A DNA stretch of 64,000 nt. Origin: Antedon mediterranea (Eukaryota; Echinodermata; Crinoidea; Comatulida; Antedonidae). The notes under the pieces are model-generated. The model was not told where the DNA came from and made no database searches. It saw only the letters and a list, made by a program, of their open reading frames with translations. Where the stretch lies: positions 35,770,501 to 35,834,500 of the forward strand of contig NC_092672.1 in NCBI RefSeq assembly GCF_964355755.1. Direction: 5' to 3'. Position numbers and translations under genes: made by a program. How positions within the stretch are numbered: the stretch's first letter is position 1; each line of letters begins with the position of its first letter. Below, in pieces: positions 14,401 through 48,740 of the stretch.

Positions 14401-17400
14401 ACTACACTAATAATTGAAAATTAATACGACATGATGACTTACCCTAAACACGCTCGAAACACAAGCTATTATTACAAAGACTGATGGGAAGAGTGGTGAA
14501 ACTAATTCTATACAAATGGCAAGATCGTTTAAAATGTCCGCAAACAACCTGAAAAAATAATACAGAAAAAAAGTTTGTTATTAATCAATTGTTAAATAAT
14601 AAAAATTGTCCTTAATTTCTTCACCATAAAGCAGAGTTTCTAACTGATGACAGGCATAGTTTTGGTCATTCCATTTTCATGACGTACCATGTACCTAAGC
14701 AGATGCCAAGTCAAGAAGTCATTCTACGCATGCTCAGAAACAGCAGAAAAGAAGCATGAACTGAATGACATTGACTTAGACTCAACAGCTCCATAGACGC
14801 ATGGCACCTTAAAAAGGTCTCTATAATATCTGGTCTCTTCGTCCATCCCCCACCCAAAAATCAACCAACCTACCTCCATCTCTTTGCATCACAGTCTAAT
14901 GAAGTTCTAAAAAAAATGAAGGAATATTAGATTAAACCAACTAAAGGTCTGCCTACACTATCAAACTGGTTTCATAAAAAAAGTGTGATTTGCTCAAATA
15001 TGGTAGTGATACTGTATGTCCAAATATGGTAGTGATATGACATCATCATGTCCATATATAGGTACATAAAAGTTTGATAGTGTAGATAAGGCTTAACTTT
15101 ACTTAAATTCTTACAATATACTATGTAAATACATTAATTATTTTAGTACAAACATTTAAAACCTCACCCTTGGTACCAAGCAAATAAGATTCTTCCAATC
15201 ATTCCAGAACCATCTAAAAAGAAGAAAAATCAAATATGGTTTTGAAAAAAATTATGAAGAAAATCTATTTTTATATCAACTCTTAAGCTTGATAGCAATG
15301 CAAGGATGTAATTGTAAGCCGCAACGCAAGCAAATTGAAAAATCAAAAGTGGTGGATTATTTCAACTGTTCCTTGTGATTGGTCAATTTGCTTGGGTTGT
15401 GGCTTACATCCTTGTGGGAACTGAGTTTAACCAATAGTAATTACTTTCTTGATGTTGATAACTTTAGGATAGAATTGTTTTGATATTTGTTTTTCCGTTA
15501 TGTTTTATCTTTGTATGAGACAAGCACCATTATTTCCACTTGTTTCGTGGACGAAATAAAGTTATCTTATCTTATCTTCTTGATACTTTTGTATATTTTC
15601 CTTTTTTTAAATATCTTTTTATTTACCTTTCAAAATCCAGGTGATCGTGGCAGCAGCAGCTGTGGCACTTTCATCACCTACCCCAACACCTTTTAACATG
15701 GCTTGAGTGGCAAGAGTGCCTGTTATACTACTGCAAAATGCCTGTAAGTGAACACAAAGTATAGCAATTGTATGTAAATTGTATGCAAATTGTATGCAAA
15801 AACATTCCTGATAGCAGCAATCATTTGTTAACATGTTGATATAAAGTTTGCATAATTGAATAAAAGTGTAAAGCTCTGTGTCTACACTATCAAACTTTAT
15901 GTGACAAAAAAAATGTGATGTGCTCATATATGGGCATGATGATGATGTCACTACCATATTTGGGCACATCACACTTTTTTTGTCAAACTAGTTTGATAGT
16001 ATAGACAGTGCTTTACAATTTTGTTAACATTTGTTAGCATAAATTGCATGTACATTTTGTTACCTGTATTGTATCCCATACTTGATACTGTAAGTAATCG
16101 CTACTGACACTGTCAGGATATCCTTGAGGAAGAAACACAGCCTGTAAGAATATCAAATGAATACCTTTGGTAAAATGTTTGTGTGGACTGCTTTGCAAAT
16201 ATAACAGAGGATGTATCTATGTCAAAAAGGTTGATACTGATAGTGTACACATTCAGAGCTTCAGTAATTAACAATTTCTTCAGTAATTTATTGACATAAA
16301 TTTCAACACAAAGAGTAATTTAAAATTTGTGATTTAAAAAAAAAATTGATATATTGTTATATCTGTCTTTTATACAGATATGAAAACCTTCACTAAAAAG
16401 TTGATAAACAAACAATAAAAATACGCAATTATGAGAAAATATTTAAAACGGGTTCAAAATTTATCAAAAATAATATCAGTGTTATGCGCGATTTGAACGA
16501 TTTGCGCAATTTGAAATTGCACAAAAATTCCTTGCGCAATTTGAAATTGCGCAAAGAATTCTTGCGCAATTTGAAATTGCCCAAGGATTTTCTTGCGCAA
16601 TATTAAATTGCGCAATCAACTTGCGCAATATCAAATTGCGCAAGAAAATCCTTGCGCAATTTCAAATTGCGCTGCACAATTTGTAAAATTGTCAAATTGC
16701 GCAGCAGAATGCTACCAGAATGCGTGCTAACGTCATGAACGATCGGTTAACAATGATAATTTATTAGAAACTATAATAACTCATGAAATGAAACATATGC
16801 GAAGATAACATGTGTATAATACACAACATCAATGGCATACACAATTAAATAATATTATCACTCATTGCAACTTAAAATAAATCAAAATAAATGTAAAAAT
16901 AACAAAAATTAATGTAGTAATACCGCCACCAACGTTTAGACTTGCTACCAAAACATAGCCATCAGTAGGCAGTAGGCTATAGTAGTATTAGCCGCCCGCC
17001 GTGACGTGCCCGCCGGGAACACCACCTTTGTGGTCCTTTGTCGGGTCTTCGACGGTATGCTAACAATAACAATATTTTCACTACTAAAATAAGGAAATGC
17101 GATATTATCTTTAATTTTGAATCATTCTTAGAAATTACTATGAAAATATGGGTGTGCATGATTTCACAATCTGTCGAAAAACTTTGCGCAATTTGGAAAT
17201 TACTTGCGCAATTTAATACGTTGCTTGCGCAATTTGAAACAGATGTTTCAATTCAAATTGCGCAAGGAATTCTTTGCGCAATTTTAAATTGCGCAAATCG
17301 TTCAAATCGCGCATAACATCAGCATGCAATATGAATGTATTTAAAAAAAATATTATTATTAAAAATAATTTTTAACATTTATGATAAATTAAAAGATATT

Positions 17401-17961
17401 AAAATATTATATATTGTACAAATATTTATAATTAAATCATACAGTTGCATTCTGCTGCATTGGGAACAAAAATAACCATTTTTTGTATAAAATTTGCACT
17501 AGAAATTTGTTGCGCAATTTTTGCCAAAAAAAAAAATGCACAAAAAAGTGTTCAAATCGTGAATTAAACACGTCATACATTTTTTTTAAATAGTGGAAAG
17601 GTGAAAGACAAACATTTTATCAGCTAGCCTGGGATTTCCCTGATCCATGCCTCTCTCTTCCTATATATCCATGGTATATATTTAGCTTTCGTGCCCGGGG
17701 ATTGCGGTTTATTGATTTGTCTGAGCATGGAGGTATCCATGGTCTGAGTGAGATAAATAGGAGGCTAGAAAAAGGAGAGGTACAAGGTGGCAATTTTTTT
17801 CATATTTCATGCAAAATTTTCAACAAAATTACCCTAAAAATTTGTCTGATTGAACTTGTCCTTGAAAAGTTGTTTTTACTTAGCTTTCCATCTCCATAAG
17901 AATAAATATTTGGCTCTGATTGTGAACCATACCGTTCTTCACATAACACGGTTGACACCAT
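8462..17961 (-). CDS. RUSF1: RUSF1 (root UVB-sensitive/DUF647 family), complete
   Basis: Thirteen minus-strand exons join in frame to 456 residues (human RUSF1/C16orf58 has 468): 17833-17961, 16064-16141, 15627-15741, 15168-15213, 14874-14906, 14443-14548, 13765-13937, 13489-13679, 12981-13038, 12540-12613, 11998-12110, 9007-9070, 8462-8652. Family hallmarks in order are VFLPQGYPDSVS, GTLATQAMLKGVGVG, LFADILNDLA, VAGGATRAALTMHQARRNNM, DVSAKDGSQETLVN, and the C-terminal FLKDLEMAGWKSE and DEWRARW. The DUF647 core, hydrophobic and likely membrane-associated, spans roughly residues 40-300. The N-terminal exon (MVSTVLCEERYGS) was chosen because it gives the CxxxYGS pattern of the family and splices in phase 0. 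Plant relatives act in UV-B response and membrane traffic; the animal function is not settled. Intron 12 holds a trinucleotide array and intron 11 a minisatellite. Confidence 0.93.
8675..8998. repeat. GAT/ATG trinucleotide microsatellite
   Basis: Long imperfect run of GAT, AAT and GAC triplets within RUSF1 intron 12, between exons 9007-9070 and 8462-8652. It creates an Ile-rich open frame on the minus strand that is not a gene. Confidence 0.9.
9304..9851. repeat. X-Y-X direct duplication
   Basis: A roughly 177-bp segment starting GCATGTTTGTTACTCTCTAT at 9304 recurs almost unchanged at 9676 (period 372). The segment between, 9481-9670, is a close copy of 7545-7735 upstream. Both lie in RUSF1 intron 11. 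Confidence 0.85.
10199..10456. repeat. Tandem repeat, 101-bp unit
   Basis: Units beginning ATTGCTACAAAGTTGTTATA start at 10201, 10302 and 10403, giving about 2.5 nearly identical copies in RUSF1 intron 11. Confidence 0.85.
11575..12000. repeat. Minisatellite, 19-20 bp unit
   Basis: About 20 diverged units around CAATTAACTGAGCCCCTGG, in RUSF1 intron 11. One end runs into exon 11998-12110: the 5' splice site GGG|GTGAGT lies in the edge unit. Confidence 0.85.
12659..12813. mobile_element. MITE family A copy 3
   Basis: Full-length, termini AAGCTCTGTCTACACT and AGTGTAGACAGAGCTT, in RUSF1 intron 9. It ends 46 bases from the acceptor of exon 12540-12613. Confidence 0.85.
13128..13436 (+). mobile_element. 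tRNA-derived SINE, full-length
   Basis: A-box-like TGGTTGAGCAG near 13139 and B-box-like GGGTTCGAGGCTC near 13193, followed by a unique body with GGTAGAACAAGTCTTCTCGG and a short A/T tail. A second copy on the minus strand lies at 22805-22940. Located in RUSF1 intron 8. Confidence 0.75.
14109..14405. repeat. Tandem duplication, 149-bp unit
   Basis: Two units starting GGGACAAAGG at 14111 and 14260 share CCTGAAGAGGATAG and GGTATAATAAATGTTTG-like stretches, in RUSF1 intron 6. Confidence 0.75.
14944..15094. mobile_element. MITE family A copy 4
   Basis: Ends AAGGTCTGCCTACACTATC and TTTGATAGTGTAGATAAGG, core GGTAGTGATATGACATCATC. In the RUSF1 intron between exons 15168-15213 and 14874-14906. Confidence 0.8.
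15287..15430. repeat. Palindromic family B copy 2, diverged
   Basis: Arms GGATGTAATTGTAAGCCGCAA and TTGTGGCTTACATCCTTG pair imperfectly around GCAAGCAAATTG/CAATTTGCTTG. Related to 4925-5105. Confidence 0.55.
15871..16013. mobile_element. MITE family A copy 5
   Basis: Full-length with flanking TA on both sides. Located in a 322-bp RUSF1 intron, 51 bases from the donor of exon 16064-16141. Confidence 0.88.
16480..17318. mobile_element. GCGCAA-palindrome TIR element, copy 1 (839 bp)
   Basis: Termini TGTTATGCGCGATTTGAACG and CGTTCAAATCGCGCATAACA are inverted copies, flanked by TCAG on both sides (4-bp target duplication). Subterminal regions are arrays of TTGCGCAA separated by about 7 AT-rich bases; the centre is unique. 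It has no coding potential I can see. A copy in the opposite orientation is at 47251-48109. Located in RUSF1 intron 1. The TGTTA end and 4-bp duplication fit the Ginger1 pattern (TGTNR...YNACA); the assignment is inference. Confidence 0.85.
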
Positions 17962-20662
17962 GTTGCATTGTTATTGCGTTGAACTTCCGTCGACTGCTTT
18001 TCTTTATCAACAATATTTTTTCTTTCAAGAGGGCGCTAGCCACTTTTTAAAAGACATCACAAGTAAGATCAGTGAGCTGTAAGCCTTCGGCTATTTTTAA
18101 TTAATTTTGCGACAAAATAAAATCTATTAACGAAATAAAATTAGAGGATTCACAAATAAGTTATAAATACTCTTATAAATATGTCACACACTAATTCCTC
18201 ATTCCTAAAAAGATGAACAAATAAAGTTTGAAATATAATTAATTAATGTGCATTGGCCCTATATGCCTAGGGTCTACATAAGATCATTATTTTATTTATT
18301 TCCTTTATTGCATCAAGTAAACAGTGATGACGTTGACATAAATATTTTAAAAAAATTATCAAAGAGTATAATAATGTATAACACAAACCAAACAAGTTAC
18401 TAAAATATATCATAGTCCACAAATTAGTTATTAATGGCCATCATAGTACATCCAGTAACACAAACCAAAAGGGGTTCACAATTTGCTTATCATAACTCAT
18501 CATCATCATGTATCATGTATAAAGATATTAAAATGATAAAAGTAATAATTGAAAAGATTGTTAAATATTAAACATTTTACTTATGTGCAGATCAGTACTA
18601 AAAAATTTGAAATGTTAATCATTTTTTTAGATCTGAAATAGTTTTTAGATATACAAAAAATTAAGTAGTCCGCCACCTATAATATTTCTTGTTGATTTGG
18701 TCACATGATAGCAATGACCTTCGCAATGATGACATCATCAGCAGGTCCGCGCGCCATCTTCCGGGTTGACAATGAACGCAAAAAGAACTCTGCTAGGCTT
18801 AACAACTGTGTGCTAGCCTGGGAGGTGTGTTTGTTTTGGTCTAGCAAGAGTATGTCGACATAATCCATGTCAAATTGGGTTTTTGCATCTACATTTGCAA
18901 AGTTTATGAAACGATTGACTCGTTTTTATTGAACGTTTATGTATGTATGAGCTGTTAATCTTTTTAAATAAGGTAAAATTGTGCGTATTTTTCAACAAAA
19001 TATTTGTTTTATTTTCAATTGGAAAATAAATCTACATTTTCACCACGTAAAGACCGAAGCCGGGGATTTCTCCTTGAGGTTGGTCTCTAGCCTAGGCTAC
19101 AGGAAATTACGACATTAAATATACTGTGGAGAAAGTTTTATGAAGAGAAATCATTTTGTTTTAATGCATGAATATGATATTTATTATTTTATCAATCAAA
19201 ATTGATGGCTGAAAAAAAAACCACTTTAAATCAAGATGCCAATCATGTTTGGTAAAAACTAAATAGGTAGGCCTAGGCCTATAATTGACTCTTCTTGACA
19301 TGAGAGTTTGTGTCTAATAAATAAGAAAAAAAATCATTCTTTTGTCTTTAGGCCTAGGCCTATACAACTTTCAATATCATACGATTATGAGCTTTCAGTT
19401 AGCACTCTAGGTAATTTCTTTTCAGCAAGTAGGCCTAGTCCTAGTACAGACTTAATGTTATATTAATGGTGGGTAGGGTGGGCGTTTCCTCTTTCTGACC
19501 GACAACCCATTTAAAATCGCTGATAATAAAAATTGCACTGCGGACCATAAAATCAACCTAAAGACGTATTTGTATCTTCAAATACGGTACGAGTGAAAAT
19601 TGCATGAATCTATAGGCCTATACGAGTATTAAATCTTTAATTTATAACCTTTAAAGAAAGAATTTTGTAAATGTCAGATTTGTGAAGTACAGACATCTTG
19701 GTTCTTCAATATGAATATTGGTCTGTCTGTTCCAAGCATCACACAAGAATCGGCTGTTAATAATATTATGTATACAATTATGAATACTGGATGGATTAAA
19801 ATTCTTTGAATTAATAGAAAATGGTTAATAGTTAATACTGTAGAATTTTCTAGACGTTGGGTCATGTCATCCATCGGTTAAAATAATATTTCTTTCGACA
19901 GAACCCAGGACAATTTTATCCGCCAAATTTCTTTTTATTGTTTCACAGCCCTGGGATTGAAATAATTTAAGTTTAAAAATTAATCATCAATTCTCTGGTA
20001 TAATCCCATCCCCCTAGAACATGAAATTAGGCCGACTTTGGGAGTGGGACTATACCCTATATGAAGCCTGGTTCATGAAAAAAATGATTGGTAAGGATTT
20101 CTTGTAAAAACAAGAACTGAACTGGCTAGAGAGAGGCCTACATCCAGGCAATACTGGGACTATACCCGGGGATATGCCTGTTTGTGAAATTAGACATAAA
20201 GTAGGGGGTGGGATTAAACCCGAAGTGGGATTATACCTGAGGATAGTATATGGTACTGCTCTTTACAACTTAGCCACTAATGAAAAACAGCTGATTCATC
20301 ACTTTGTTGCTATGATATCCTGTCCTGTACACCAGGTACTCATCATACCTGGAAAGAAATTGTTGTGGCATATGTTATCCAAACTATTATTTGTCACCAA
20401 GATCTGAGAAAACCTGTTCTAGTAAATTGTTTGATCCCATCTGTTTATGGTACATAATATTGTGTCAGTCAACAAAGTAGATTAGAAATAATTACCAATA
20501 CAAACATATTAACATACTAAATAATAAGTGAGAAACTTATGGGCTCCTAAAATGTATGATGTCAGAGTTAAGAATTTGGAAAACAGATTAATGTGTTTTG
20601 TTATCAAAAGTTTTAATCTTTTACCTTGAATACATTGTTCTTATCTGTTTGTCTTTTCTCAG
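17962..20662. promoter_or_regulatory. Head-to-head promoter region of RUSF1 and MTMR
   Basis: 2.7 kb between the RUSF1 start (-) and the MTMR start-codon exon (+). Near 18752-18777 the sequence GCGCGCCATCTTCCGGGTT contains, on the minus strand, an ETS site (CCGGAAG) overlapping a YY1-like AAGATGGCGC, a common TATA-less promoter pair. A GTATGT donor near 18849 could end a 5'UTR exon for MTMR. No other coding exon was seen; the remainder is AT-rich. The promoter call is inference. Confidence 0.45.
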
Positions 20663-23600
20663 GTTTACATTCTGTACTGTGTCTAGTTTGGCTACCATTG
20701 GCTACTATGGTAAGTTTAATGTTATCATAGATTAATAAATATTTACTAAGACTAAGAGAGTAAAACTAATATAGTTAATACAATGTTCAAATGTCATAAG
20801 TCAACTTTTTGGAGAATAAAATATTAAGAAAAATTGTATTGTAGTGATAGTGATACTGATAGCCTAACCAAAAATATGCAGTAAATTGTATTTTAAAAAA
20901 ATGACCCATATTGGTGTGAACCACTTCATTGTGGTTCTCTGTGGACCAAGTACAGTGGGTTTCATGATAAATTGATTGATTGAAATTAATAAATAAATGC
21001 TACAACCTGCTGTAACCTGTTGTGGTAAGGCTGGTTAATTAATGTACAAGAAGGCACCTGGAAACTCTGCTGGGGAAATTGGTCAATTAAGTCATCCTTT
21101 TCAAGTTCAGCATCCTATAATATAAACATCAAGGTCAAAGGAAACTATCAAGTGCACTTGACCAACAATACATTTATTTGTCGACAACAAAAGATAGTGA
21201 CACAACAATGTAGACTTTATACCTTCCATGTAAAGCTCTATCAAACTAGTTTGACAAAAAAAGTGTGATGTGCCCAAATGTGGAAGTGATATGCCCAAAT
21301 ATGGTAGTAATATGATGTCATCATGTCCATATATGAGCACATCACACTTTTTTGTCTAGTTTGATAGTGTGGACAGAGCTTTAGATTAAATATTCAACTA
21401 CTGAAAGCCAGATAATATTATATCATGGAGCTGATATGGTTATATGATGCAGTGAACTTCAGTGTCATGTCTGAGGAGAGAAGAGTCATACGTGCTCTTG
21501 TGTCCATTGCATAAAGCTCTGTCTACACTATCAAACTTTATGTCGCAACAAAATTGTGTTGTGCCCATATATGGACATGATGATGTCATATGATATCCCA
21601 ACCATATTTTGGCATATCACTACCATATTTGTACATATCACACTTTTAAACTAGTTTGATAGTGTAGATAGATCTTAAGCCCTATCTACACCATCAAACT
21701 TAGACAGATGTTATCGTAGGCTATTAGTTACATGATGTACAGTATGGAAAAGAACATAGTAAATTGCTATACTCTGTTGTGTCAATTTCGATTTCCATCT
21801 TTACGCTATTCTGAAGTAGATTAGGAAGGATTGTCTTTTGGTTGTACTAATCCTTCCTAGTTAATCTGCAATATGTTCTGAGACATAACCAATTTATTTT
21901 GTCATCTGAAACTGAAATATCACATACTATTTTCTACTTGTTGTAATCAAATTATTTTTATATTTCTTAATTTATTCCAATGTTCTATGTTTATGATGTA
22001 ATCTAATATTCAATTGTTGTTATATTCTTAATAATTCACCAACATTTTCTGTTATAATGATGTAATCTACTAATTCAATTGTAATACAGCTGAAACTGCA
22101 ATATGAAAAATGTCAGTTCATTATGGGAAATTCACATTAAATACTTTCTGTCGTCTGACATTTTTTGAAAAGTCATTGTTTTGTCTAAAGAGAAAGGGAA
22201 AGATAAACAATCAAATAGATTATGAATTTCAACAACTTTTTTCCGGAATAACCTGTTCAAACCGATTTTGAAGTCAAGTTTCTAGTCTAAGCCATTTTTT
22301 CTTTCGTATTTTTTATATATAATTTTATGTCAAAGTTGTAAAGTCAATATAAAATATTATTTGATTGGCAAAAAGGTGCTTATCATTCTTATGTCTAGTG
22401 CCTGTTAATTTATTAATCAATCTGGGATATTAGTAGTACCAGGATCTTTCTCTTGGCCCAGAAAAGTAAGTGGCAAATTGCAAAAAAATTAGCAGTTCAT
22501 ATTATTAGAATTCAGTCAAAGACTGTTCTATCATACTAGCCTATACAATAAGTTGCTTATCCCAACCTCCATAAATATTTAGTGGAATAATCAGGTATCC
22601 AGATTTTATTAGGTTCTTTTAAATGTAGAATACAATAGCTTGGATTACAAATAAATAAAAGTATGATAAATTCTGGTTACCTTATAGTATTTTTTTAAAT
22701 TGTAAAATATATATAAAAAAAAAATAAAATATATATATATATAAAATATATAAAATATATATATATGTATATATCTTAATATTTGTAATATATTTTCTTG
22801 GACTCAAACATTTTTATCCGAGAAGACTTGTTCTACCACCAGAACCATGGAGCAAGTGAGCTTCGAACCCTTGCCGATGTTATAGCTACGTAATTACGGT
22901 TCCACTGTCTTAACAGCTCGGCCATTAACTCGGTGTATTCATTTCTTTTTTCTTTAATTCTCTCTTTTAGTCTGAAGCACAACAAGAAGAGCATGATAGC
23001 TTGGTGCATGTAAAGGCTAGTGATGCTTTTCCCAAGAAGCAGTTACACAAGGAGGACGACTCCTTGGAAGTACCATATCCACTTCTTACTGGAGAGTCTG
23101 CTCTCTTCCTTGGAAAAGCCTGCGATTCCATCATTTGCCTGTCTGACTTCAGATTGGTTATAAGATACGCAGATTCATTTGATAACGTAAGTTTTCATGC
23201 GAAATTCGTGACGCTACTCCCAAATCACACGGTCCTTGATGAAATGATGATTAAACTGTTTCGTGATACACACCTTGACACGCCCTAAAGCTGATTTGGT
23301 ATGCCTTAATGTTTATTGACACGTCCTAATGTTTATTGACATGCCCTAACGCATATTGACACGCCTTAATTTTTATTATTGTCAAGGCCCAAAATGTAAA
23401 TGTATCAAATATATTGATATGCCCTAAAGTATCTTGACACGCCCTAAAGTATATTGACACGCCCTAAAGTATATTGACACGCCCTAAAGTATATTGACAC
23501 GCCCTAAAGTATCTTGGCAAACTCTAATGTTTATTGATATGAGATTTGTTGTAAAAGTATCATTTTCTTGTGAATAAATTGACTATGCTTTTCTGAATTT

Positions 23601-26600
23601 ATCGAAAAAAAAGACACTCTAGTGTTTCATACTTTGATTTTCATGTATGAGCTACTTGTGTGCCCTCCTGGAGTGTTTTACCTAATAGCATTAGATGGTA
23701 AAATATTAATTGATGAATGACATAATAAATCTATGCAAAGTTTTTTTTTTTTAGTACTGTACCACCAGCAAATGAGAATCTATAGTAGACTATATTTCTT
23801 CCTATGTCTACCGGTACATAAATCATGACACTTAGCAGCACTCTATCCATCGCAAACAGTTCATCATCATTTGCACAAATTGATTAATGGTTTTTCTGCA
23901 TTCACACTATAAATCATAAAAGAATTTTCCAAGATGGTCCCTTATTATATTATGGATACATTTATTAGTATTACTTATTCTTGAATGTTAGACATGCACG
24001 ATAGAATCCCTTAAGGGAATACTTAAATGTTTGATACCTAAAGAACATTGTAAAATTAACATAAAAATAAAGTTTTATTGCTTGGTTATATTTAAATAAT
24101 GAAACACTCAGAATAATGAAGGATTGTTTATAGTATTTTGCTGTATGTAAATCTAATTATTATACCAATTATAAAATATTATGAAAGGTTTATACCCTTA
24201 CTACATATATTACTGTATTTAATAAAACATATTACATTTATAGAAAAAAATTGTTACAATTCTGATCTATGGTATTGGGGCCCGGGCCCCTCTCTAAATT
24301 TCTCAAATTGTAATGCAAAAGATAGGACATCAAATTAAGTTCAGCACTAAATTTCACTGGTTTTAGGCCCAAAGACCCCCTATTTCAAAATCCTGCATCC
24401 GCCACTGGATTGAGGGGCGTGAGACAACAGCTAAATCTCCCTTCCCTCCCTCACATAAAGGAGCTACATCAGTCTAGATTATTATTATTTTTTAATAATT
24501 ATTATTATTTAGGTGCCTTTGCGATTGATTGAGAATGTTGAGACTCGAGATATGAACTACGTACACATTTTATGCAAAGACGCCCAGTCTATTAGGTAAG
24601 TTATTCATGAATTTCATACAATTGTTGAGAATTAAAGAATGTTATTTAAAAAACATCCATTTTCAGAATAAATTTTCAGTTGGGAGAGAAAAGAAAACAG
24701 GTTTTGCTGAGTCAGGTGAGAAATTTTACTTAACTGTACTTCGAGGAAAAATAATGATTGGTAAGGTAATAAATTAGCAGAAAATAATCCTGAAAGTTTG
24801 CTGTTTAGGAATAGTGTACATTAAAATAGTTATAAATGGTACAAGGAAATACTACTATAACAAGTTTAGTATAATTAAAATACTTGTACAAGGAAATATT
24901 ACTATATAGTTTAGTAAATAATGTTTACTTGATACTATACACTTTTATTATTTATTTTTTTGAGAAACCTATGAAAAACATTCAATGGTTCTTTTTATGG
25001 GAAATCCCCATTTCAATTCTTTGCATTTGTGAGACATTGGGTGAATGGGTCGATAATATGTTTGTAATTCAATGAAGGTGACAACAATACTATTCATTAT
25101 ATAAATGCATTTAGGTATTTCCATCCACCCACAAGTATATATATTTAGCCTGGGGTTTTTACGAAATCTATTTATAACTTTTCAAACTATTTATTTCGTT
25201 ATTAAAAAGCCCAGTTACGTTAATACTATAAAATATTAAATTTTTCTTAAAGAACTCTGGAAGAATTATAAGCCAGTGTAGTAAATATTACTCCTTTTAC
25301 CATACTGTATATCAGATGTGATCATACAGAAAAAAACAAAGATTTTTTAGATGATGTTGAATTTGACAACTAGAAAAGTTATCTTTCCCCAAGTGTCCTG
25401 CTACGACAGCTCAATCTGAAATCATTGTAAAAATAGACATAATTTCAATGTAATAAAGCTCTGTCTACACAATCAAACTAGTTTGACAAAAAAGTGTGAT
25501 GTACCCAAATATGGTAGTGATATGCCTAAATATGATAGTAATGTGACATCATCATGACCATATATGGGCACATCACATTTTTTTTGTCGCATAAAGTTTG
25601 ATAATGATAGTGTAGACAGAGCTTTATAGTTGAACAAAATTTGAACCAAAAAAACCCCATTAAATTGAATGACGTTTTAATACACAAGAGTCATTAAATC
25701 TACTTCAGTTCTGAAGACTAATTTTGACTTTGTGGTTTACAAATTTAAATAGTAAATCTAAAAGGGAATTCCTAGAATTATGTTTTAATTTTGTTTGAAT
25801 ACCTCGTAATCTAGGCACTTGAATAATAAATTACCTGTATTGCAGTTTAACGACTTTACAATAATATTTCATTAGAAGATAAAAAAAAAAGGTTTTAATA
25901 TCACTTTTTATAATCAGAAAACTTTATTTTCATTTTACAACTGAGGTACTGTATACATATTTTTATTTATTTAAAAAGAGGGAGGTATATGACATTTATG
26001 TTGATGCATAAATCATAGAGAAGTACAATATACAGACATAAATAAAATGAAATCATTACACAACGTATTATAAACAGATTGTAATTATATCGGCCAGGTT
26101 ATTAAACATTTTTTTTAAAACATTTATTTTAAACTGGCCTCATGGTTACGTTAGTGTCCAATTTATGAATAATTTGGCATTTTAAATTAAATTATTTGTG
26201 ATTTATTAGATAATTTAACACATGTCTAGAAGAATAATACATTAATAAGAAGAGTTTGAAATTGGCTATTTGTTTATTTTTCATCTGTTTAGAAGATAAA
26301 CATCTTTATTAATTATTGATTTATGTCAGAGGCATGATTTGTAATTTGTAAACATTAATTTTACAGTTTGGAACTGGCCATTTTTTTATTTACTTTTTTC
26401 CAGAAATAAAGTTGTTTTTGTTATTTTAATCATTATTAATATTATTCAATGTATTATTTTTTGCCACATTGTCAAGTTATACTAGTACAGTAAATGGATA
26501 AATAGTGAAACATGGATGGACAAATAAGTGTTCAATTTTATAACGGTTTATTAATTTAAAATCTCATCTATAAACTAGAAAGCCACTCCGAGAGTGCATA

Positions 26601-32600: not shown

Positions 32601-35600
32601 ATATCTTGTAGATGTTATAAATCGTAATTAATTTGTTTTTATTTGTCTTGTTTTTGGTTGACAAACAAGCATAAGTTTTTGGCACCTGTCTTTCCTTCCA
32701 TTTTATATCTCTGTTTGATATTTGTCAGAAATTTGAATAAATAAAAATAAATATAATTGTTTCAGGGTTTCCAAGTATTAGTAGAGAGGGAGTGGTTAGC
32801 GTTTGGACACAAGTTTGCTGACCGGTGCGGTCATGCAAAGCAGAATGATGATGCAAATGAGAGATGTCCAGTTTTTCTACAATGGCTTGATTGTGTACAT
32901 CAGATACTCACTCAATTCCCAACAGCCTTTCAATTTAATGAGACGTTCTTGGTAAGTTTATCTTTTACTAATCAATACAAATATTCCTCATTTTCAACAT
33001 TTCTTTTTGTCTACATTTTCTCTTAGTGTTCAGCAAAGTTTAAAAATATCACATCCATTCATTAATACATCTTTCTCTACATGCTAATCTCCAACATACT
33101 CACTTCTGCTGAGTTTGACATTGGAAGTGTAACATAGACTTAGCTTGTTGCTATTATTAGATTATCTTAATTCAAAGATTTGTGATTTGTCTGCAAAGTA
33201 GATTTGGTGCCAGACAACAAAAGTGTCCTTCATATGAATTTCCCAGGCACGTTAAATTTGTCTCTAAAGCTCTGTCTACACTATCAAACTGAGTGTGATG
33301 TGCCCAAAAATGGTATTGATGTGCCCAAATATGACATCATGTCCATATATGGGCACATCACATATTTTGTCACATAAAGTTTGATAGTGTAGACAGACTT
33401 TATGCAAGTAACTTCTTTATATTTCTATTAAACACTAATTAATTCTTTTTATTCGTTTCTATTAATTTTGTTAACAATAAATATTTTTTTTTAAAATTAT
33501 TATTTAAACAATAACAATTTAATTTATTATTATTAGAAATTATTGTGTCTGGAGTACAAAAAAATGCATGTGGGATTTAGGTATTGTCCATTAGAATAAA
33601 GGGGCTTTTACACCTGTTCCGGCAAATCCAATTGAACGTCAATGTTTTGTTTTCACGTGGCTACGTGCATATCGATTGGCGCATAGCGTCGGAAAAACGA
33701 AACATTGACGTTAAATTCGTAGGACCAGAACCGTGCCAGAACAGGTGTGAAAGACCCTTTAAACAGGACTGTAAACATGGATGAAAAACCATAAAATAAG
33801 GAAGTGGAATAAATGAATGTGAACAGTGATAATAAAAAAGTTTTTAACAATGTTTCTTCAGATTAAACTTGTCAAGCATACATTTTCATGTCTCTTTGGA
33901 ACATTCCTGTGTAACAGTTCAAAAGAACGACAGCAAAGTGATGTCAAGGATAGAACATGCTCTGTGTGGTCAATCCTGGAGGTTGAAGGTCATAAATATA
34001 TCAATTATCTTTATGCAGCTACAAATAAGGTATGTAAAGCTCTGTCTACACTATCAAACTTTATGTGACAATAAAATGTAATTTGCCCATATGGACATGT
34101 TGATGTCATATCACTACCATATTTGGGCAAATCACACTTTTTTTGTCAAACTAGTTTGATAGTGTAGACGGAGATTTAGTAGTTGTATTTTTCATAGACA
34201 TAGACAGTTTAGAACAATGTTTGAGGTTATAATTTATCTGATTTAGACATTTTATTTTAAGTAATTTTAAAGAAAGTATAGCAATAGAAACAACATTATA
34301 GACGTATTTAAGTAATTTTAACAATAGAAACATTATTTTAGATAGTAATCAAAAGTTGTATTATTCTTTATTTTCTTTCAGGTGAATTTATATTTTGTTT
34401 TTTAATCAAGTCTCCACAATGTATTTAATCCTTACTTCTTTTTCTTTCTTTTCTTTCAGGTGCTTTATCCTTCATGTAATATACGCAATCTCCGTCTTTG
34501 GGCCAATGTCTACATGTCTGATTCAGTTGCGACAAGTCCAGATGACATCACACCAACTGGTCCCGCACGTGAAGTTCAAATGGCCAATGCCTCGCAGTTA
34601 CCGAGAACCAGATCTTGCGACGATATCCATAAAGCTGGAAATGATATATCGGAAGGAAATGAAATACTGAAGGAAATATCTAACCTACAGCGTACATCTA
34701 GTGATCCTAACTTAAGCGATACAAGATGTGAATTAAATATTGGTGTGTCTCCGCCTCAGAGAGGTGCGGATATCTCACCAGAGGTGTTGCGTAAGAACAT
34801 CAACGCCCTCGCAGAGGTTGGGGTAGATGATGTTACTAAGCAACCTGTGCAGGAGCCTGATGTCAAGGAATTAACAAATGGAATAATAACAATAAATGGT
34901 TTTAACGAAAACTCTGTAGAACTTGATAGTTTTGTAAACTCGGCAAGTGGTGAGGACGTTAACAGTTCCACCAATCATAACGATGATGACGGTGAAATGC
35001 ATTCTGGGGAATCAGCCAACCATAACGGCCATGTGCCAAACGGATTAGCGAATGGCGTTGTTAACGGAACGGTTATGGATTCTGTAAAGCTTCCAGGAAA
35101 AGCGTTTAGGACCCCGATTGATGCGCATCTAGAAAGTTCAACAGAGACTCTTACAGAAGATATTGCTAATAGCCTTACAAACGGACATTCTGATGAAAAT
35201 GGTCTATTAAAATCCAAAAGTTCAACTATTAGCACTAGCACTACAGACATTAGCGATTCAACAATAGGATTAGTAGACGCAATACATAAAGACCGCTCTC
35301 TAAATTACGAAAGAGAAATGTATAGCAAATCGGAAATATATTACAAGTCTTATCCGCCGCTCTCGGTTAAAACTAGCAAGTCGTTTTACGATCCCGCAAC
35401 CCGCCGGAGTCATACCTCTGGCTCGAGCATGCTCAGTTCAGCCTCCGAGTATTCTACGCCAAGTGCTAGTCCTCGGTATGAACTTAACGGTCACGGCGGG
35501 AGTTTAGATAGTCATCGTTCATACGTGAAGGATAACGTACCAAGTATGTTACGCATCGGGAGACATTTAGATGAAGATGGGTTGACATCAGTTAAGGATC

Positions 35601-39185: not shown

Positions 39186-40700
39186 TTGAAACAGAATTTG
39201 TTTTATCGACAGTATATTTATTGTTTCAAACTGTGGCAATGAAATTACTGTAATGTTAAAATTGCATGTCTGTACTGCTGATGTAATAATCATTTGGGAA
39301 TGGGAACTAAATTCAAAGTCTTGGCTTAGCTCATCGCCTCTCTCTGTGATGATAAATATATGTCTTATATTTTGTTTTATTTATATTTACCAGATTTTTT
39401 ACACATGTATGCAATAGTGTAACAGCAAATGGCTGTTTTGGTTTTAGCAGCTAAGAAATTTAAAAGCAGCCAAAGAAAAATTTAAACAATACTGTCATTT
39501 GGTTTTGAATCTAATTTGTGGAAATCTGTAAATGTAATTGCAAAATTCACACATTCTAAGTACTATGTTTATATTTTGCTGATAATTACTTCAGATGGTG
39601 AATTTGACTGAGATAGCAAAATTCTTATTGAATTAATTTTTGTTGTATAATAGTTATATTATTTATTCTAGCAATTGGTGTATTATTTACTACAATCCCT
39701 GTCGTCATTTACCCCACCAAACCTTTTTGATCTTTATGAAATATGACATTTATATAATCTTGACACCTACCTTTGATACCCAACAAAGTCTCCCCTGAAT
39801 ATATTTAACAAATATATTTATAGCATCAATTGATATTTTAAAACATAAAGAATTACAGTTCAGATGGGAAATAAAACCATAAAATTATCCTTAGTATAGA
39901 AAAAAAAAACCAATATTTTACATAAATCCAAATTTGATCTCGATTCGAGTTGCAATATAAGCAAAAAAGCTGTATAGAAATGGCAACTTTTTGGAAACAC
40001 CATTATATTTGTTGTGATAATGACATTCATTGAAAAAAGTAAATGTTTTATACCATACAGATATTATATAATATCTCTATGTTTAGACCGTCTGTAATTA
40101 TGATTTTAAGTACAGACGCTTAACTGCCAATTTGATTACCCCAGAACTGAAGGTGGCAATTAGGTAACTAGAACAGTTGTATTATTTGTCTTTTAATTTA
40201 AGTACTAAAAAAATTACCCGAATTATATCTATTTTATGGTTATATTAATAGTACATGTCTATATACGTATTATGAGATTTAAAAAAGCAATATTATATTA
40301 TTTTTCTAAAAATTAGCTTCTACGAAGCTGTATTGTTAAAAATATTAAAAATAGTTTTTGGTAATTAAATTCTAATATTTTATTTGAAGTGAATAAAGTC
40401 TTATTTTCTTGTTTGAAAATAAAACATTTCAGAATTAAACTAGTTAAAATATTTTACAACAAAATTATAATTTCTTTAAGACCAAAAAAAGCAGTCTTAA
40501 TATAATTTGTAAATATTGTTTGGGATTGTCTCTCAAAACATGTGCAAATTTTCATTTTGCTTCGCTTTGACAGGGAGTGTGCCCTCTATGGCTGTTAAAG
40601 TGAACAATATGATGCAGGATTTCAAATAAAGATGTATTGGAAACTCACTCATTTCTATATTTTTTTTTCTCTTTATTCAGTCAAATAAAAATTGCGTTTT

Positions 40701-40805
40701 AAGCTCACTACACTCTCAAACTTTATGTGACAAAAAAATGTGATGTGCCCATATATGGACATGATGATGTCATCACTACCATATTTAAGCATATCGCTAC
40801 CATAA
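40701..40805. mobile_element. MITE family A copy 14, truncated
   Basis: Left end AAGCTCACTACACTCTCAAA through CACTACCATATTTAAGCATA; right arm missing. Confidence 0.75.
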
Positions 40806-40906
40806 ACAAACAAAACAAATATTGCATCAAGACTCTACATCCGAGTTCTAAAAAACAACCGTTGTGAAAGTACTGTTCCGTCAATTGGTTCTCATAAAGT
40901 AGAAGT

Positions 40907-43900
40907 TCATAATGCAAGGTGTTCAAGAGTTGATTTCATTTCTACTAACTCGTGTACAGATTCATGATTGTTACCATAGTGACAGACAAGGACTGGTAAA
41001 CATCTATTGATTGTTGCTATGGCACCTTCAACATCTCGCCTAAAAACATCAAATATTAAGAGTTTTAGAACAATATTTAACAATGGCTTGTCTGAGGAAC
41101 GAAGTCGATGAGATGGAGCATATTGAGGAAAATGTAAGGTGGATGGAAAAATATTAAAATAAAGATCTCTGTACAGTCAGATTAAGAATATACTTACATG
41201 TTAAATTGTATACTGGCAAGTTTGTGTAATTCATTTGCAAGTTCTATACTATCAGGTCCAAACCACTTCTCTACAGTAGCTATGCTTAGCTTCAGGAACT
41301 TAACAGCTGAACTTGTATCACCTGGATTGAAAAAAAAAACCCACACTGAATAGGATTTGTATTCCCTCAGGTCAGAGGTCAGTGCAGGAAGCTATCATAT
41401 TTTATTTACATTAGATTACAAATCTGCATTTCTTATTACTGGACTATGATACAACATAAACACATTTTGTTTCAATTCTTCACACTGTGAACCTTGCCAT
41501 TGTTTTAGCTTTCACACCAGTCCCACTCAATGTCACTTATATTTCTGGACTTTCTGCATTCTCACTCCTTTGGACGATCAAGGTATTGAAATGCGAGAAA
41601 ATAAATATGTGATGTACCACAAACTTTATATCAACATAAATACATTTTTCAATCGATTAGTATATCTCATAGGCATCAGTTCCAGTTTACACTGCTTTTC
41701 TCCAACTTCTAAATTACAATGCAAAAGATAGGACATACAAAATCTTCACCCATCACTATATCTTGTGTATATACATTAACTTTAAAATAATCTGGCATAT
41801 CTCTACTGTAATAAAGCAGAAGTTGAAGGGATGAGGCTTATATGAGAGCCATTAATGGTAGTTGCATCTTCACCTAATAGAACATAGCACCTTGCAATAC
41901 TGTCTTGTGTTTGGCCCAGGTTTCTGTGATATTTATCAAGATATAATGTCTGTATTTCACAACACTGCAAAAGTAACACTAAAGAATCTGCAAAACAAAT
42001 TATTTTGGTAATATTCTCTATGCGAGGTAGTCATTATTATCTACAAATAAGGGGTGAATATTTATCATTAAGTCTTTAAAAATTAAAATTGCCTTACCTT
42101 CAATTTTATTTTCTTCTAACATCTGATTGGCTTTCGAAAACATATCCATTGACTTTGACAATTCCTACACAAATTTTATGAAAACAATTTTATACAAAAG
42201 TGTTTTTTTTTATATATTGGAAAAAATATATATTGCAGAAAACAATAAAAATATGACTTTGATGTTTTCAGTGATACTCTCTAGTAATACATTGTAATTT
42301 AAATTCACCATTTTTATGTTTTCTTTGTTAGAATTCTCTTTGCTAGTTTCTTGCGTTAGATCATTATCAGCGTTTGAGTCATCAAGTCTGCATGCATCAC
42401 AGTTACACTCAAAGTTATACTGCTTCTTCAGAGCTTCTTGTCTTTCTGCCTTCTTCATGCGTTTATAATGAGGGCCTGAAAAAGAAAACATTCAACTATT
42501 TCAACAATTTTGTATTTGTGTAAACCTACAGTAGAATCCCTATTATAATAGGGTCCCTGAATGGGGGTTGGTGTTAAGACATTGTTCCTCATTCATTTCA
42601 CAGGAAAATGTCCTCTTAATAGAAGTGCAATCAAGGGGTTCACAAATTAGGCTAGGTTTTTATCAGTGCGGCTATTATTAGTGGTCATTAATACATATTC
42701 TATATGTCTAACATGAATAAGACCTTATTGAGCCTGCAATCTAAAAATAATGTAAGCCTGGGCAAAATGTACTACAGTGGTTGGATACAACATGCATACA
42801 GCATTTTATCAAGTCAACTCCAATCTTAGATTTTTTTTTATTTTGTTATTGATTTTTTAAAAACCATATTTAATGAGGGTGATCCATCCAGCAATTAATG
42901 ATAAGGGACCCTCACAGGTTCACAAGACAAACATATACACAAGATGCTCTACATAAACAAAGGCATATTACAAGTCTTTAGGAGTGGAGTGGAAATATGT
43001 TCTTAGCAAAAATCCCGACATGTGACGGGACTTGAACTCAGGACCCTTGGAGTGGTAGCCAAGCATCATAACCACCAAGCCACAACTCCACTCCGATGTC
43101 AATCAATCAATCAATCAATAATTTTTATTTCTCAAATAAAAACAAAATACAGTTAACATTTTCTAAAAATAATAGATAATAAATGAGAAAAAGGGGTACC
43201 CCACTGGAAGCTTAAGCTTTAAAATGTGGGGTCCTGGCAACATAATTAAAAATAAGGTAAGGTAAGAAATATATATATATAATATATGATAATGAACATA
43301 AAAAGACATTTAACTTAACAAATGCAGTTATTATATGACTTAAGACAGATATATGATCAACTTAAACAATAATAGTAGAAACAAGGTATTCATGTAGTTT
43401 GAACTTAAATGAAGATATAAAATTAATAATTTTAATTTCATCTGGTAAAGAATTCCAAATTTTTGGTCCTTGAAAAGTTATATCATGCTTGCCAACCTCC
43501 GTATTAAAACAATCATAAGCATAATCAAATTTATTTCTGGTATTATAATTATGAACTAAACTAAAAGTTTGAAAATAAGTATCAAAAATTCTGGGCAGTT
43601 GATTATGTTTGAATTTAAACATAAATAAAGCAACATTTTTTGTAAGTAAGTCGTAAATATTAAGTGTATTAGATGAGACAAAAAGAGGAGCAGAATGGTG
43701 GAGGTAATGAACATTATAAACTGATCTTAAAGCTCTTTTTTGCAAAATATAAATACGGTTTAAATTAATTTTTGAAGTAAAACCCCAAACGGTTATACCA
43801 TAAATTAAATGTGCCAAAAAGAGTGATTTATAAATTAATAGTAAAACGGAGGAAGGCAAGGCATGTTTGAGTTTATTGAGGACACCGACCACTCTTGATA

Positions 43901-46900
43901 GTTTTAATGAAATTGTATTAATATGAGAAATAAATGATAAGTATTCGTCAATAAAAATGCCAAGAAATGTTGTTGCTTTAGTTCTTTCAATTTCGCTGAT
44001 GCCGTAATATAATTTAGGAATGTTGGGGGGGATTAGTTTATTAACTGAACGAAAAATAATAAATTTGTTTTTTTTAATATTTAACGAAAGCTTATTTGAT
44101 TTTAACCAGTTTGCAATTTTAGTAAGTTCTTGATTCATTAAAATAATAGCTTGGTAGATGTCCTTATGATTAATAAATAAACTTGTATCATCTGCAAACA
44201 TAACAATTTCAGCACAATCACTAATATAATTTAAATCATTAATAAATAACAGAAATAAAAGCGGACCAAGGATGGATCCCTGTGGAACACCACACGAAAC
44301 TGGCCGCAGCTCAGAGACAATATCATTGATTGATATATATTGATGTCTGTTACTTAAATAATTTTCGAACCACTTAAGTGGTATACCTCTTATACCATAG
44401 AAACGTAACTTATTAATTAAAATATCATGAGAAATACAATCAAAAGCCTTTGACAGGTCAATAAAAACTCCTAAAGTAAATTGTTTTGTTTATTATCAAT
44501 AGCAGACAAAATATTATGGATTGAATGATGGATGGCTGAATAGGAGTGTCCAAAAGTAAAATTGTACTCACCATAGCAATGGAGAATTTCTTTATTTGTG
44601 TCTATTGTTGTAATAGATCGTACAGTAATTTCATCATCTTTAAAACTAAAATAAAGAAAACCAGAAAGGCTGGAAACTATCTCACTACATCATCAAGGCT
44701 AGGTTACACATAGTTTGTTACTAACGCATGTAAACTCTCGCTCTCTCATTGATCAAGACTGGATCTCCAAATTTCAAAAATAATTCTCACCAAGAAGAGA
44801 ATATAGCAGAATATAAAATTAAAGCCGGGTTTGTTTCTTTATTTCCATTCACAACAAAAAACATACATAAATAGTCATCATCATCTTTGCTTTAAGGTTT
44901 CCACTGGGAGAATCATTATTGAGCTGGAATATATGAATGTTCATGTTTATAAACCAACACTTTCAATTCTTTCAAATAAATTCAATGAGTGGAGGATGGG
45001 CTTAACTTAAAACAATTGAAGATACTAAGTATTGTTTTACCTCACAATCACATTAGGTTTGCATGAATGGTTTAGCAGACTTGTGGTTGGAAACAAAGCT
45101 GTGGCCAATCTTCTTTGTTCAACATCTGCAACTCTGTGTCTTCCTTCTCGTATATTAGATGGCACAATTCTTGTTACAGCCTGAGCGTTACAATATAATT
45201 GTAGCCAATGGCGAGTATGGGTATTTTGAAGCTGACCAATCAGACATGATTTGTCTTGGTGATGTGACTTATCTAACATTTCACATGATTCTCGTTTCCA
45301 GGTTCTGTTACCTAGGAGATGATCTATTGTTTTGTGTATAAGTTCAGATGATATCTACATGAAAGAAATTAACACATTAGGTACATTTATTCAACCATAT
45401 TTCACGAGGGTGACCCAGCCAGCGGAAGCTGATTTTAAGGGGCCCTCAACATAGATTATTAAATAAATTTACGAACTTACAAAAAAAAAGTTGCTAATAA
45501 ACTACCTTCTGGAAATGTTTGATATCTTCAGATGGATGCATGTTTTCATTCATCACTAGATTCCATACGGATTGGTAGTTTCCATAGTAACACCCACTAC
45601 TTGAACATCCAGGAATTGACTTACTAGTCTCCATGGAGACTTTAGTATCCTTCACATGCTGGCCTTTAACAGTCTGTACCCCAGAGATTACAAGGATTCT
45701 GTAACTTAAATGTGCATATACTCCAACCTATAGAAACATTATAGAAAACACAATAAATTTATGGTATATTTTGATATACTTTATAAATTAACATACAGTA
45801 GCTCTCTTTACCTCCTGAAGCAAGTTCCAATACGGGCATTCGGCCCAGTGGTATAAGGTCATTGATCTCTGTTGACATTCATCACTGCAATACCTGACTC
45901 TGCTACATGATGGACAGCTAGAAATAAAATAAAACTCAATTAAAATTCTGATGAATTCATGCCCTTATGATTTAGAAATAGTAGAATAAATCAAAAATAT
46001 ATTTACGGAATTGCCGCTTCTGTAGGTGTAAAGCATTGGTGACAGTGGGTGTTGTGGAACTCTGGTAATAAAACACCTGTATATGGCTTCTCCTTGATAA
46101 TGGTACTACCTGCCGGAATCTTTACCTTTGCCTATGGAAATAAAAGCTTAGGTTCAGTTTAACAACGAACTGTATGTACAGTAGCATGTATCTGCAATAT
46201 ACTTTTCAAAGTCAGATAAAACAAATTATTTGTTGAAGATGAACTTACTACCAGATGTCTCCCTCTCACATTATTGTACTTGATGGCAACATTTCTCGTA
46301 GCCCCACAGATTTCATCCGATTCTATAGTCATACTTTTATTAACTTCATCTTTAGCCTGTAGAGCTGTGACAAAAGCAATAATAGTTGACAATAACATTA
46401 TACCGGTGTCATTTCTGGTCACTGGTTTGTAATTTGTCATGCCCAAAATTTATCTCTATTTTAAAGCCCTGTCTACACTATCAAACTAGTTTGACAAAAA
46501 AAGTGTGATGTGCCCTAATATGGTAGTGATATGACATCATCATGTCCATATATGGGCACATCACATTTTTTTTCACATAACATTTCATAGTGTAGACAGA
46601 GCTTAAGCTAGAAAGTGAGATTGCATAAAACATACTTTCTGATGCTTCTTGATATCTTTCTAGCTGTATCAAACACTGTGCCTTCCTTTTAAACAATTTA
46701 TTTTGTTTTTCCGCAGGGTACCGATGGTGCAAAGCATGTTCTATATCTTGTAAGCAACCCTAGATGAAAAATATATAATTATATATTTTATTATAAACAC
46801 CTTACTGTCACAAAGACTCTAGTTTTGTAAACAATTATGTTTGATGAAATTTTAATTTGTAATACACTACTTAGGCTCTGTCTACACTATCAAACTAGCT

Positions 46901-48740
46901 TGACAAAAGTGTGATGTGTCCAAAATATGGTAGTGATATGTTTAAATATGGTAGTGATATGACATCATTATGTGCATATATGAGCACAACAAATTTTTTT
47001 GTCACATAAAAAGTTTGATACTGTAGTGTAGACAGAGCTTTACCTTCCAGTTGCTGGTTTCATAAAAGAGAGCTGATCGATTTGCGAATCCCAGAGCGAG
47101 TTCACTTCCATCATTATGCGGTGCTAGTAATATCGCCTGGTGATCAACATTTTGCAACTTGTTAGTTATATTTATTATTATTAACCTGCAATACACTGTT
47201 GTGGTAAAACAATGCTTAGAAATGCGAATGTCTCGTCTAAGCTATGTCTATGTTATGCGCGATTTGAACGATTTGCGCAATTTGAAATTGCGCAAGGATT
47301 TTCTTGCGCAATTTAAAATTACTGTCGAAAAACCTTGCGCAATTTGCAGATTACTTGCGCAATTTAATACGTTGCTTGCGCAATTTGAAACACATGTTTC
47401 AATTCAAATTGCGCAAGCAACGTATTAAATTGCGCAAGTAATCAGCAAATTGCGCAAGGTTTTTCGACAGATTGTGAAATCATGCACACCCATATTTTTT
47501 TAGTAATTTCTAAGAATGATTCAAAATTGAAGATAATATCGCATTTCCTTACCCTCCCGGGAGCCTCCCTCCCGAATTTTTTTTTCCGAATAAAAAAAAT
47601 CTTGAATTCCCAATGGTTCTATAAAATACCATATTCACACATAATATGAGGAGAAGGCATAAATAAATACCAATAGTAATATAATAATTTCAATTCAAAT
47701 ATCAGTAAGGACGATTAATAAGACTAATAACGATTGGATTTTTTTTTAGAAACAATAATATTACGAATTATTAGACGTTTACTATTTAACTTAAAAATTA
47801 AATTTAATGACAAAAAAGATCGACCTTTCGGTACCATTCTCAACAACAAATGACTACAATAAAAAAAATAACAACAGTTCGTTTTCAAATTGCGCAAAGG
47901 TGTCATATTGCGCAAGAACTATCTTGCGCAATTTACAAATTGTGCAGAGCAATTTGAAATTGCGCAAGGATTTTCTTGCGCAATTTGAAATTGCGCAAGT
48001 TGATTGCGCAATTTAATATTGCACAAGAAAATCCTTGCGTAATTTTAAATTGTGCAAGAATTCTTTGCGCAATTTTAAATTGCGCAAATCATTCAAATCG
48101 CGCATAACATCTACACTATCAACTTTATGTGATAAAAAAATGTGATGAGTGTGCCCATATGGACATGATGATGTCATATCACTACCATATTTGGGCACAT
48201 TTTTTTGTCAAAGTAGTTTGATAGTGTAGACAGAGCTCATGTTATTTTTAAAATATAGGTGTTTAGCTTAGACCTGAGTAGACTTGCCCCAAGTCTGTAT
48301 TGTTTTTTTTTAAATTTATTTGTTTTTATTTCGACCGAACTCAAGTAATACACGTATGAAACGCCATATGTGCAAAAATATTTATATTTTTACTAATATT
48401 AAGAAAAAACTCCGTCTGGAGCCCAGACTAAGACCTGAGGTGTAAAATTGTTGGTATCCATCCACTGAAATCAGCCTGTTTTTAAGTGGAGGTGATTGTA
48501 GTGTGTTAAGTTCAGTGTATTTAGGGGTTAGATATATATATTTGGCACTTAAATGATGATGCTTTGGTCATAAATGGTGTAATTTATAAATCTCTTTATT
48601 ATTACCCAATTATAATTCTTCAACGCATCATTAAATTGTCTCTTTTGATAATGTGCATTTCCTTTCAACCTGAATGCATTGGAAGACTTTTCACATTTGT
48701 TACCAGATGATGTTTCGTAAATCGGTGTTACACCAGCCAT
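40907..48740 (-). CDS. SMYD4: SMYD4: TPR, MYND and SET methyltransferase
   Basis: Fourteen minus-strand exons join in frame to 637 residues (human about 804): 48606-48740, 47044-47136, 46636-46759, 46249-46364, 46007-46131, 45812-45917, 45506-45727, 45041-45354, 44572-44645, 42309-42475, 42098-42164, 41874-41987, 41198-41321, 40907-41039. TPR-like helices occupy about 20-110 (GFANRSALF). The split SET domain starts near 140 (GRHLVAKVKIPAG). The MYND zinc finger has C186, C189, C199, C202, C208, C212, H221 and C225. The SET core shows SLLNHSCKPN (402-408 is NHSCKPN) and HCYGPHYKRM, with post-SET Cys in ECNCDAC. All ligand and motif positions are intact, so a working protein lysine methyltransferase is expected. 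The start (MAGVTP) is the first ATG of its exon. The protein is shorter than human at the N-terminus, so an upstream exon may be missing. The donor GTGAAT of exon 10 is the least certain boundary. Confidence 0.93.
42527..42645. repeat. TACAGTAGAA-type element, truncated
   Basis: Starts TACAGTAGAATCCCTATT and contains GTGTTAAGACATTGTTC and CCTCTTAATAG, as in 59219-59389. The other end is lost. SMYD4 intron 9. Confidence 0.6.
42855..43098 (-). mobile_element. tRNA-derived SINE, second family
   Basis: On the minus strand the head reads GTGGCTTGGTGGTTATGATG (A box) and CCTGAGTTCAAGTCCCG (B box), then a body ending GGGTCCCTTATCATTAATTG. The tail recurs at 45393-45455. Its head touches the (ATTG)n tail of the LINE in the same orientation. 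Confidence 0.75.
43099..44570 (-). mobile_element. 5'-truncated LINE with reverse transcriptase, pseudogenic
   Basis: Minus-strand non-LTR reverse transcriptase fragment. Upstream, HSYSAIHHSIHNILSAID is followed by a frameshift near 44473, then FIDLSKAFDCISHDIL, GVPQGSILGPLLFLLFINDL and the catalytic FADD. The frame stays open to a stop at 43362 (279 residues from MFADD, including thumb and C-terminal parts). The 3' end has AATAAAAATTATTG and a (ATTG)n tail typical of CR1/L2/Jockey-group LINEs. The endonuclease and ORF1 are missing. The 5' break lies within a few bases of the SMYD4 exon 9 donor at 44571. Confidence 0.9.
45393..45455 (-). mobile_element. SINE tail fragment
   Basis: AACCATATTTCACGAGGGTG and AAGGGGCCCTCAACA match the tail of the 42855-43098 SINE. 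SMYD4 intron 7. Confidence 0.6.
46464..46604. mobile_element. MITE family A copy 15
   Basis: Complete; ends 31 bases from the donor of SMYD4 exon 46636-46759. Confidence 0.88.
46873..47040. mobile_element. MITE family A copy 16, forming a 5' splice site
   Basis: Complete. On the minus strand the exon/intron junction reads AACTGGAAG|GTAAAGCTCTGTC: the MITE starts at intron base +4 and its TA target is the TA of GTA. Confidence 0.9.
47239..48238. mobile_element. MITE family A copy 17, split by a nested element
   Basis: Left 12 bases (47239-47250) and right part (48110-48238) together make one MITE, interrupted by the element at 47251-48109 with TCTA duplicated. SMYD4 intron 1. Confidence 0.85.
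47251..48109. mobile_element. GCGCAA-palindrome TIR element, copy 2 (859 bp)
   Basis: Same termini as 16480-17318, opposite orientation (GGGTGTGCATGATTTCACAA of copy 1 is reversed here). Target duplication TCTA on both sides. Arrays of TTGCGCAA fill both subterminal regions; the core differs from copy 1 by an AT-rich stretch near 47570-47880. Confidence 0.88.

Follow-up and report, generated by a model that had tools for sequence, protein, structure and literature searches.

A young non-autonomous transposon family with palindrome arrays in both ends in the crinoid Antedon mediterranea, probably of Ginger2/TDD type

What are two segments of a crinoid genome that begin and end in the same terminus and are packed with copies of one short palindrome, and what moves them? 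The segments lie in a 64,000-nt stretch of Antedon mediterranea (contig NC_092672.1, positions 35,770,501 to 35,834,500 of the forward strand; ‘the window’, to which plain positions below refer). A sequence-only reading had described them as members of a transposon family built from the palindrome TTGCGCAA. Our analysis confirms that they, named Wa and Wb, are two copies of one non-autonomous family of transposons with terminal inverted repeats (TIRs), i.e. miniature inverted-repeat transposable elements (MITEs). The coordinates, the TGTTATGCGCGATTTGAACG ends and the flanking target site duplications (TSDs), TCAG for one copy and TCTA for the other, are as that reading had given them. Complete copies have two unlike ends, A and B, enclosing a core of one of several types, and the features in the window are as follows.

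16476..16479, left target duplication of Wa, TCAG
16480..17318, plus strand, copy Wa, gamma core, 839 bp long, TTGCGCAA exact in 15 places, recognised by its termini and TSD
16502..16672, plus strand, palindrome array of the Wa B-end, period ∼15/30 bp
17153..17318, plus strand, A-end module of Wa, 166 bp, from CATGATTTCACAATCTGTCG to the terminus, with its array at 17184-17296
17319..17322, right target duplication of Wa, TCAG
34037..34173, plus strand, uninterrupted copy of the MITE that hosts Wb, an empty-site paralogue with a single TCTA
47239..48237, unrelated hairpin MITE split by Wb into the pieces 47239-47250 and 48110-48237, whose joined flanks align unbroken to other copies
47247..47250, left target duplication of Wb, TCTA
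47251..48109, minus strand, copy Wb, delta core, 859 bp long, TTGCGCAA exact in 18 places, its A-end on the left
47273..47457, minus strand, array of the Wb A-end, which includes a 68-nt foldback, 99% complementary (47322-47389 / 47403-47470)
47890..48087, minus strand, array of the Wb B-end
48110..48113, right target duplication of Wb, TCTA

Within the window the 20-mer terminus TGTTATGCGCGATTTGAACG occurs at 16480 (+), 17299-17318 (−), 47251 (+) and, with one mismatch, 48090-48109 (−), and at these four sites only; shuffled sequences are expected to contain none. The palindrome TTGCGCAA is found 34 times against 0.78 expected, and 33 of these occurrences are inside Wa and Wb. The claim that the strands can fold in many registers is a fair one: the 839-bp Wa single strand reaches a folding energy of −193.5 kcal/mol, compared with −102.1 ± 6.4 kcal/mol in shuffles (z −14). 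Wa is 92% identical over its full length to the locus L041.

The insertion of Wb can be seen directly. When its flanks are joined with one TCTA, the alignment to 34037-34173 has no break at the junction, and the joined flanks also match ∼40 genomic copies in one piece; the existence of these unbroken empty-site paralogues shows that Wb was inserted with a 4-bp duplication. The host hairpin MITE (GCTCTGTCTACACTATCAAACTTT...) is itself very abundant, with copies at 46465-46605, 34037-34173, 15876-16012 and 54052-54215, about a dozen more in the window and >4,000 first-look candidates genome-wide; its middle (ATATCACTACCATATTTGGGCAC) also builds short tandem arrays of 21-24 bp at 6665, 31490 and 57425.

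Genome-wide, the terminus was found (with at most two mismatches) 387 times in forward and 376 times in reverse orientation, while the reversed control pattern gave 0 and 1 matches. These termini correspond to ∼380 copies with paired inverted termini in 354 Mb, and the claim of a transposon family is borne out. For further characterization, 47 copies in which both ends are present were sampled, chiefly on contig C1 and chosen for intact termini; TSD matches were scored up to 11 bp. The TSD is exactly 4 bp in 38 copies (a chance 4-bp match has a probability of ∼0.5%) and 5 bp in three; two more copies, both within simple repeats, match over 6-7 bp, the single 6-bp match being a TATATA repeat. 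Both ends read TGTTA. The inverted repeat extends further inward than the 20-33 bp initially supposed, to ∼66 bp in the consensus sequences of the two larger subfamilies, alpha and beta, the commonest of which has a single indel in it.

Target sites of the 38 copies with 4-bp TSDs (76 half-sites) have the consensus T-R-[TATA]-Y-A, with a TSD that is TATA-like by majority. A purine at position −1 (pyrimidine at +1) is present in 72 of the 76 half-sites (∼94%; p 2e-17 against local base composition) and T at −2 (A at +2) in 68 (89%; p 4e-25).

The A-end usually measures 167 bp (CATGATTTCACAATCTGTCG to terminus) and, together with an adjoining stretch, is conserved to ∼230 bp in nearly all copies; the B-end carries the longer array, and the larger subfamilies have this end in common to ∼265 bp. 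The same terminal modules enclose at least five core types (alpha in 21 copies, beta in 15, delta in six, gamma in four, plus the type of L033), and copy length ranges from 0.7 to 1.5 kb. L033 (C1:16649765-16651280) represents the 1.5-kb core type, whose interior is common to ∼15 near-identical copies and has no frame that reaches 150 codons; the inner 0.9 kb also exists as a free-standing repeat at 90-92% identity, which suggests capture of another repeat. Arrays were present at both ends of every complete copy examined (11-21 exact palindromes), with a mean of 18.3 exact TTGCGCAA per copy and 859 exact sites in the 47 copies. In the array unit, C-TTGCGCAA-TTTsAAA-TTGCGCAA-G, palindromes are themselves arranged as a palindrome, and start-to-start steps are mostly 15-16 bp.

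Copies differ from their subfamily consensus by a median of 0.5% in alpha, 0.6% in beta, 2.2% in delta and 3.4% in gamma, and two alpha copies (C1:3590079 and C1:20997291) are identical across 799 bp. By the low divergence within its largest subfamilies the family is young, and a source of transposase was probably active recently. One family copy carries an insertion of a second, unrelated palindromic repeat (L005 element, C1:2620316-2621427), an array of inverted motifs with ATTCGTTTGAACGGATT units.

What, then, moves these copies? Stop-free frames in the consensus sequences of the subfamilies reach 72-109 codons at most, so that the copies encode no evident protein and, as the first description had it, contain no transposase. 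The ends, the ∼66-bp TIR, the TSD and the target all fit what has been published on the Ginger2/TDD group, and a Ginger2/TDD-type family is accordingly the best reading. In the published account (PMC2836005) Ginger2 elements are given an RTATAY target, TGTNR ends, TIRs of ∼50-180 bp and a 4-bp TSD, the TDD elements of the same group (TDD-4/5) a 5-bp TSD, and a non-autonomous derivative, Ginger2-1N1_NV, a length of 252 bp and >50 copies. The family here shares with them the TGTNR ends, a TIR within that range, the TSD length, an AT-rich, RTATAY-like target and the occurrence of non-autonomous copies; compared with the same account, it differs in its extra preference for T/A at −2/+2 and in its 0.7-1.5 kb copies with TTGCGCAA arrays in both ends, known here without a transposase. 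Judged by ends, TSD and target, which are the features used for this assignment, Ginger2 membership appears to fit best. The transposase of such an element would be recognised by an H2C2 zinc finger and a DDE core without the GPY/F and YPYY motifs, both of which mark a Ginger1 transposase.

We consider it probable that this is a young family moved in trans by a transposase of the Ginger2/TDD group, with the palindromes as secondary binding sites. The proposal that the array is a repeated transposase-binding site is plausible, and variation among copies bears on it. Variants private to one copy are as frequent in palindromes (51 of 616 sites) as elsewhere (213 of 2588; p 0.94), while variants shared by copies are depleted in palindromes (1 of 616 against 35 of 2588 sites, p 0.009, in a small test uncorrected for relatedness on copies chosen for intact termini). 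Such a depletion is what would be seen if mutated copies transposed less, and it weakly supports a role of the palindromes in transposition. There is also a precedent in Galileo, where multiple transposase sites lie inside repeated TIRs, and secondary tandem sites are known from other elements (PMC3688188); an array of multiple binding sites would thus resemble a known strategy. The likeness to Galileo and other Foldback-like elements is confined to motifs, probably bound by the transposase, that recur within long terminal repeats, since Galileo belongs to the P superfamily, has a THAP domain, other ends and another TSD, and its motif is not the palindromic TTGCGCAA.

Several observations count against this interpretation. 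Four of the 47 copies have no TSD. The sequence-only reading had regarded copies lacking a 4-bp duplication as contrary evidence, and the 5-bp and absent TSDs touch on this, but a 5-bp TSD is also produced by TDD elements, which are part of the Ginger2 group. The complete RTATAY motif is present in only five of 38 targets, and the limits of the shared-variant test given above belong here as well. Finally, no transposase-bearing copy between the same termini, as hoped for at the outset, was found by five routes, in a partial survey in which part of the termini were listed and the best integrase matches scored, and which does not establish absence.

Of the seemingly unpaired termini on C1 whose inward DNA was read, all but one turned out to be paired with a diverged end, and the exception, L028/L032, is a remnant. 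Termini followed by non-family sequence led to diverged family copies, to an older related MITE and to L042, a lone terminus in a region whose short frames resemble an acyl-CoA synthetase gene. Divergence inside the A-end was limited to the 26 delta-type copies, and divergence at the junction of B-end and core yielded two matches, ordinary alpha and beta copies. The related termini TGTTATGCGAGG and ...AACAATTTAT adjoin Gypsy-like or LINE-like coding sequence and satellite.

The related short MITE, 320-390 bp long and apparently older, has the same first 15 bases followed by AACAATTTAT; copies lie at C1:7466365-7466702, C1:26300133-26300454 and C6:15960249-15960634. A long and very regular satellite (L097, C9:11568730-11569930), with a unit of ∼39 bp (AAAGTATCATGTTGCTGACACATTCATCATGCCTAATGC) and open in several frames, starts close to a terminus remnant of this related family. 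At 43362-44201 (−) the window also holds a fragment of a LINE-type reverse transcriptase (RVT_1, E 7e-4).

The missing transposase leaves some room for another integrase-type DDE group with TGT..ACA ends (IS481EU-like, IS3EU/GingerRoot-like or undescribed), in which case the Ginger2 likeness in target and TSD would be convergent; we regard this as possible but unlikely. TG..CA ends and TSDs of 4-6 bp are indeed common to integrase-type enzymes (PMC10045372), and recent DDE transposons matching the rva_4 profile (PF24764; 77 matches) are present in the genome. IS481EU elements have TGT..ACA ends and, in some families, 4-bp TSDs; they are reported, however, only from parabasalids and have TSDs of ∼4, 15 or 25 bp (PMC10045372), whereas here, with matches scored up to 11 bp, 4-5 bp account for 41 of the 47 copies. 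IS3EU/GingerRoot elements differ in having (mostly) TA..TA ends and 6-bp TSDs (PMC10045372), compared with TGT..ACA and mainly 4 bp here. The one rva_4 element read, L098 (C1:1863800-1868300), contains no TTGCGCAA. It is a DDE transposon with an intact exon; three nearly identical copies exist, with 100% identity over 4.5 kb (the others at C4:14265864 and C5:9459036), and the initial 179 bp of the element are also found by themselves elsewhere, as would be seen with short derivatives. With the rve profile at least 150 matches were scored, many in retrotransposon-sized frames and not assignable.

As to the palindromes, it is conceivable, if not likely, that the array is a functionless by-product, a tandem repeat growing and shrinking in the TIR by slippage or unequal exchange. 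Array length does differ by whole units (727 versus 799 bp in core alpha, 167 versus 197 bp in the A-end); on the other side are the retention of arrays at both ends in every complete copy examined and the depletion in palindromes of shared variants but not of singletons. We think it quite improbable that the palindromes serve mainly as a platform for a host factor, a bZIP dimer on the array driving transcription, chromatin opening or the timing of germline transposition. TTGCGCAA is the C/EBP-beta consensus (PMC3820678), and both the 18.3 exact sites per copy and the depletion of shared variants would suit such a platform; yet the outer bases of the full ATTGCGCAAT are present at only 43 of 859 sites, and both terminal modules contain the sites at almost regular intervals, as end recognition predicts. 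That the array combines a platform for end recognition with a cluster of C/EBP-type bZIP sites, tying transposition to the host regulatory network, is a speculative reading that we hold doubtful; if true, the recent spread would have scattered ∼7,000 C/EBP-consensus sites (∼18 per copy in ∼380 copies).

The Ginger1 label proposed at first, which would imply a Gypsy-integrase-like transposase with a GPY/F motif and CCGG/CCGT sites, agrees with the TGTTA ends (TGTNR), the 4-bp TSD and the TIR length (40-270 bp), but is highly improbable and already largely refuted by target choice, since none of the 38 TSDs is CCGG, CCGT or ACGG and the target is AT-rich with T-R/Y-A flanks, while the published Ginger1 target is CCGG (75%) or CCGT/ACGG (24%) (PMC2836005).

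Under the Ginger2/TDD interpretation, an integrase-type transposase (rve-fold DDE) encoded elsewhere would move the copies in trans by ‘cut and paste’. Its recognition site would be the 5′-TGTTATGCGCGATTTGAACG end; after cleavage at TGT/ACA, integration would take place at TR-NNNN-YA sites with a 4-bp (sometimes 5-bp) stagger, whose fill-in would yield the TSD. The two-fold symmetric TTGCGCAA arrays would most likely be secondary sites for a dimeric DNA-binding part of the transposase or for an accessory dimer, and their binding would help both synapsis and the recognition of the ends. The intervening core is dispensable and has been exchanged several times.

In the literature searched (with Repbase and Dfam outside the search) we found no published description of such a family and no occurrence of the 20-mer terminus or of the 23-mer array unit. 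By its sequence features the family would belong to a known kind of transposon, with palindrome arrays in both ends as its distinctive end structure. If the Ginger2 assignment is true, it is a large Ginger2-type MITE family, very young and clean in its target signature, and a good substrate for studying end recognition and excision by integrase-type cut-and-paste transposases; for Ginger1, excision is stated as unknown in PMC2836005. The palindrome array predicts many binding sites per end, which is concretely testable. As a widespread host factor has TTGCGCAA as its consensus, the copies may, in addition, provide the genome with new regulatory sites.

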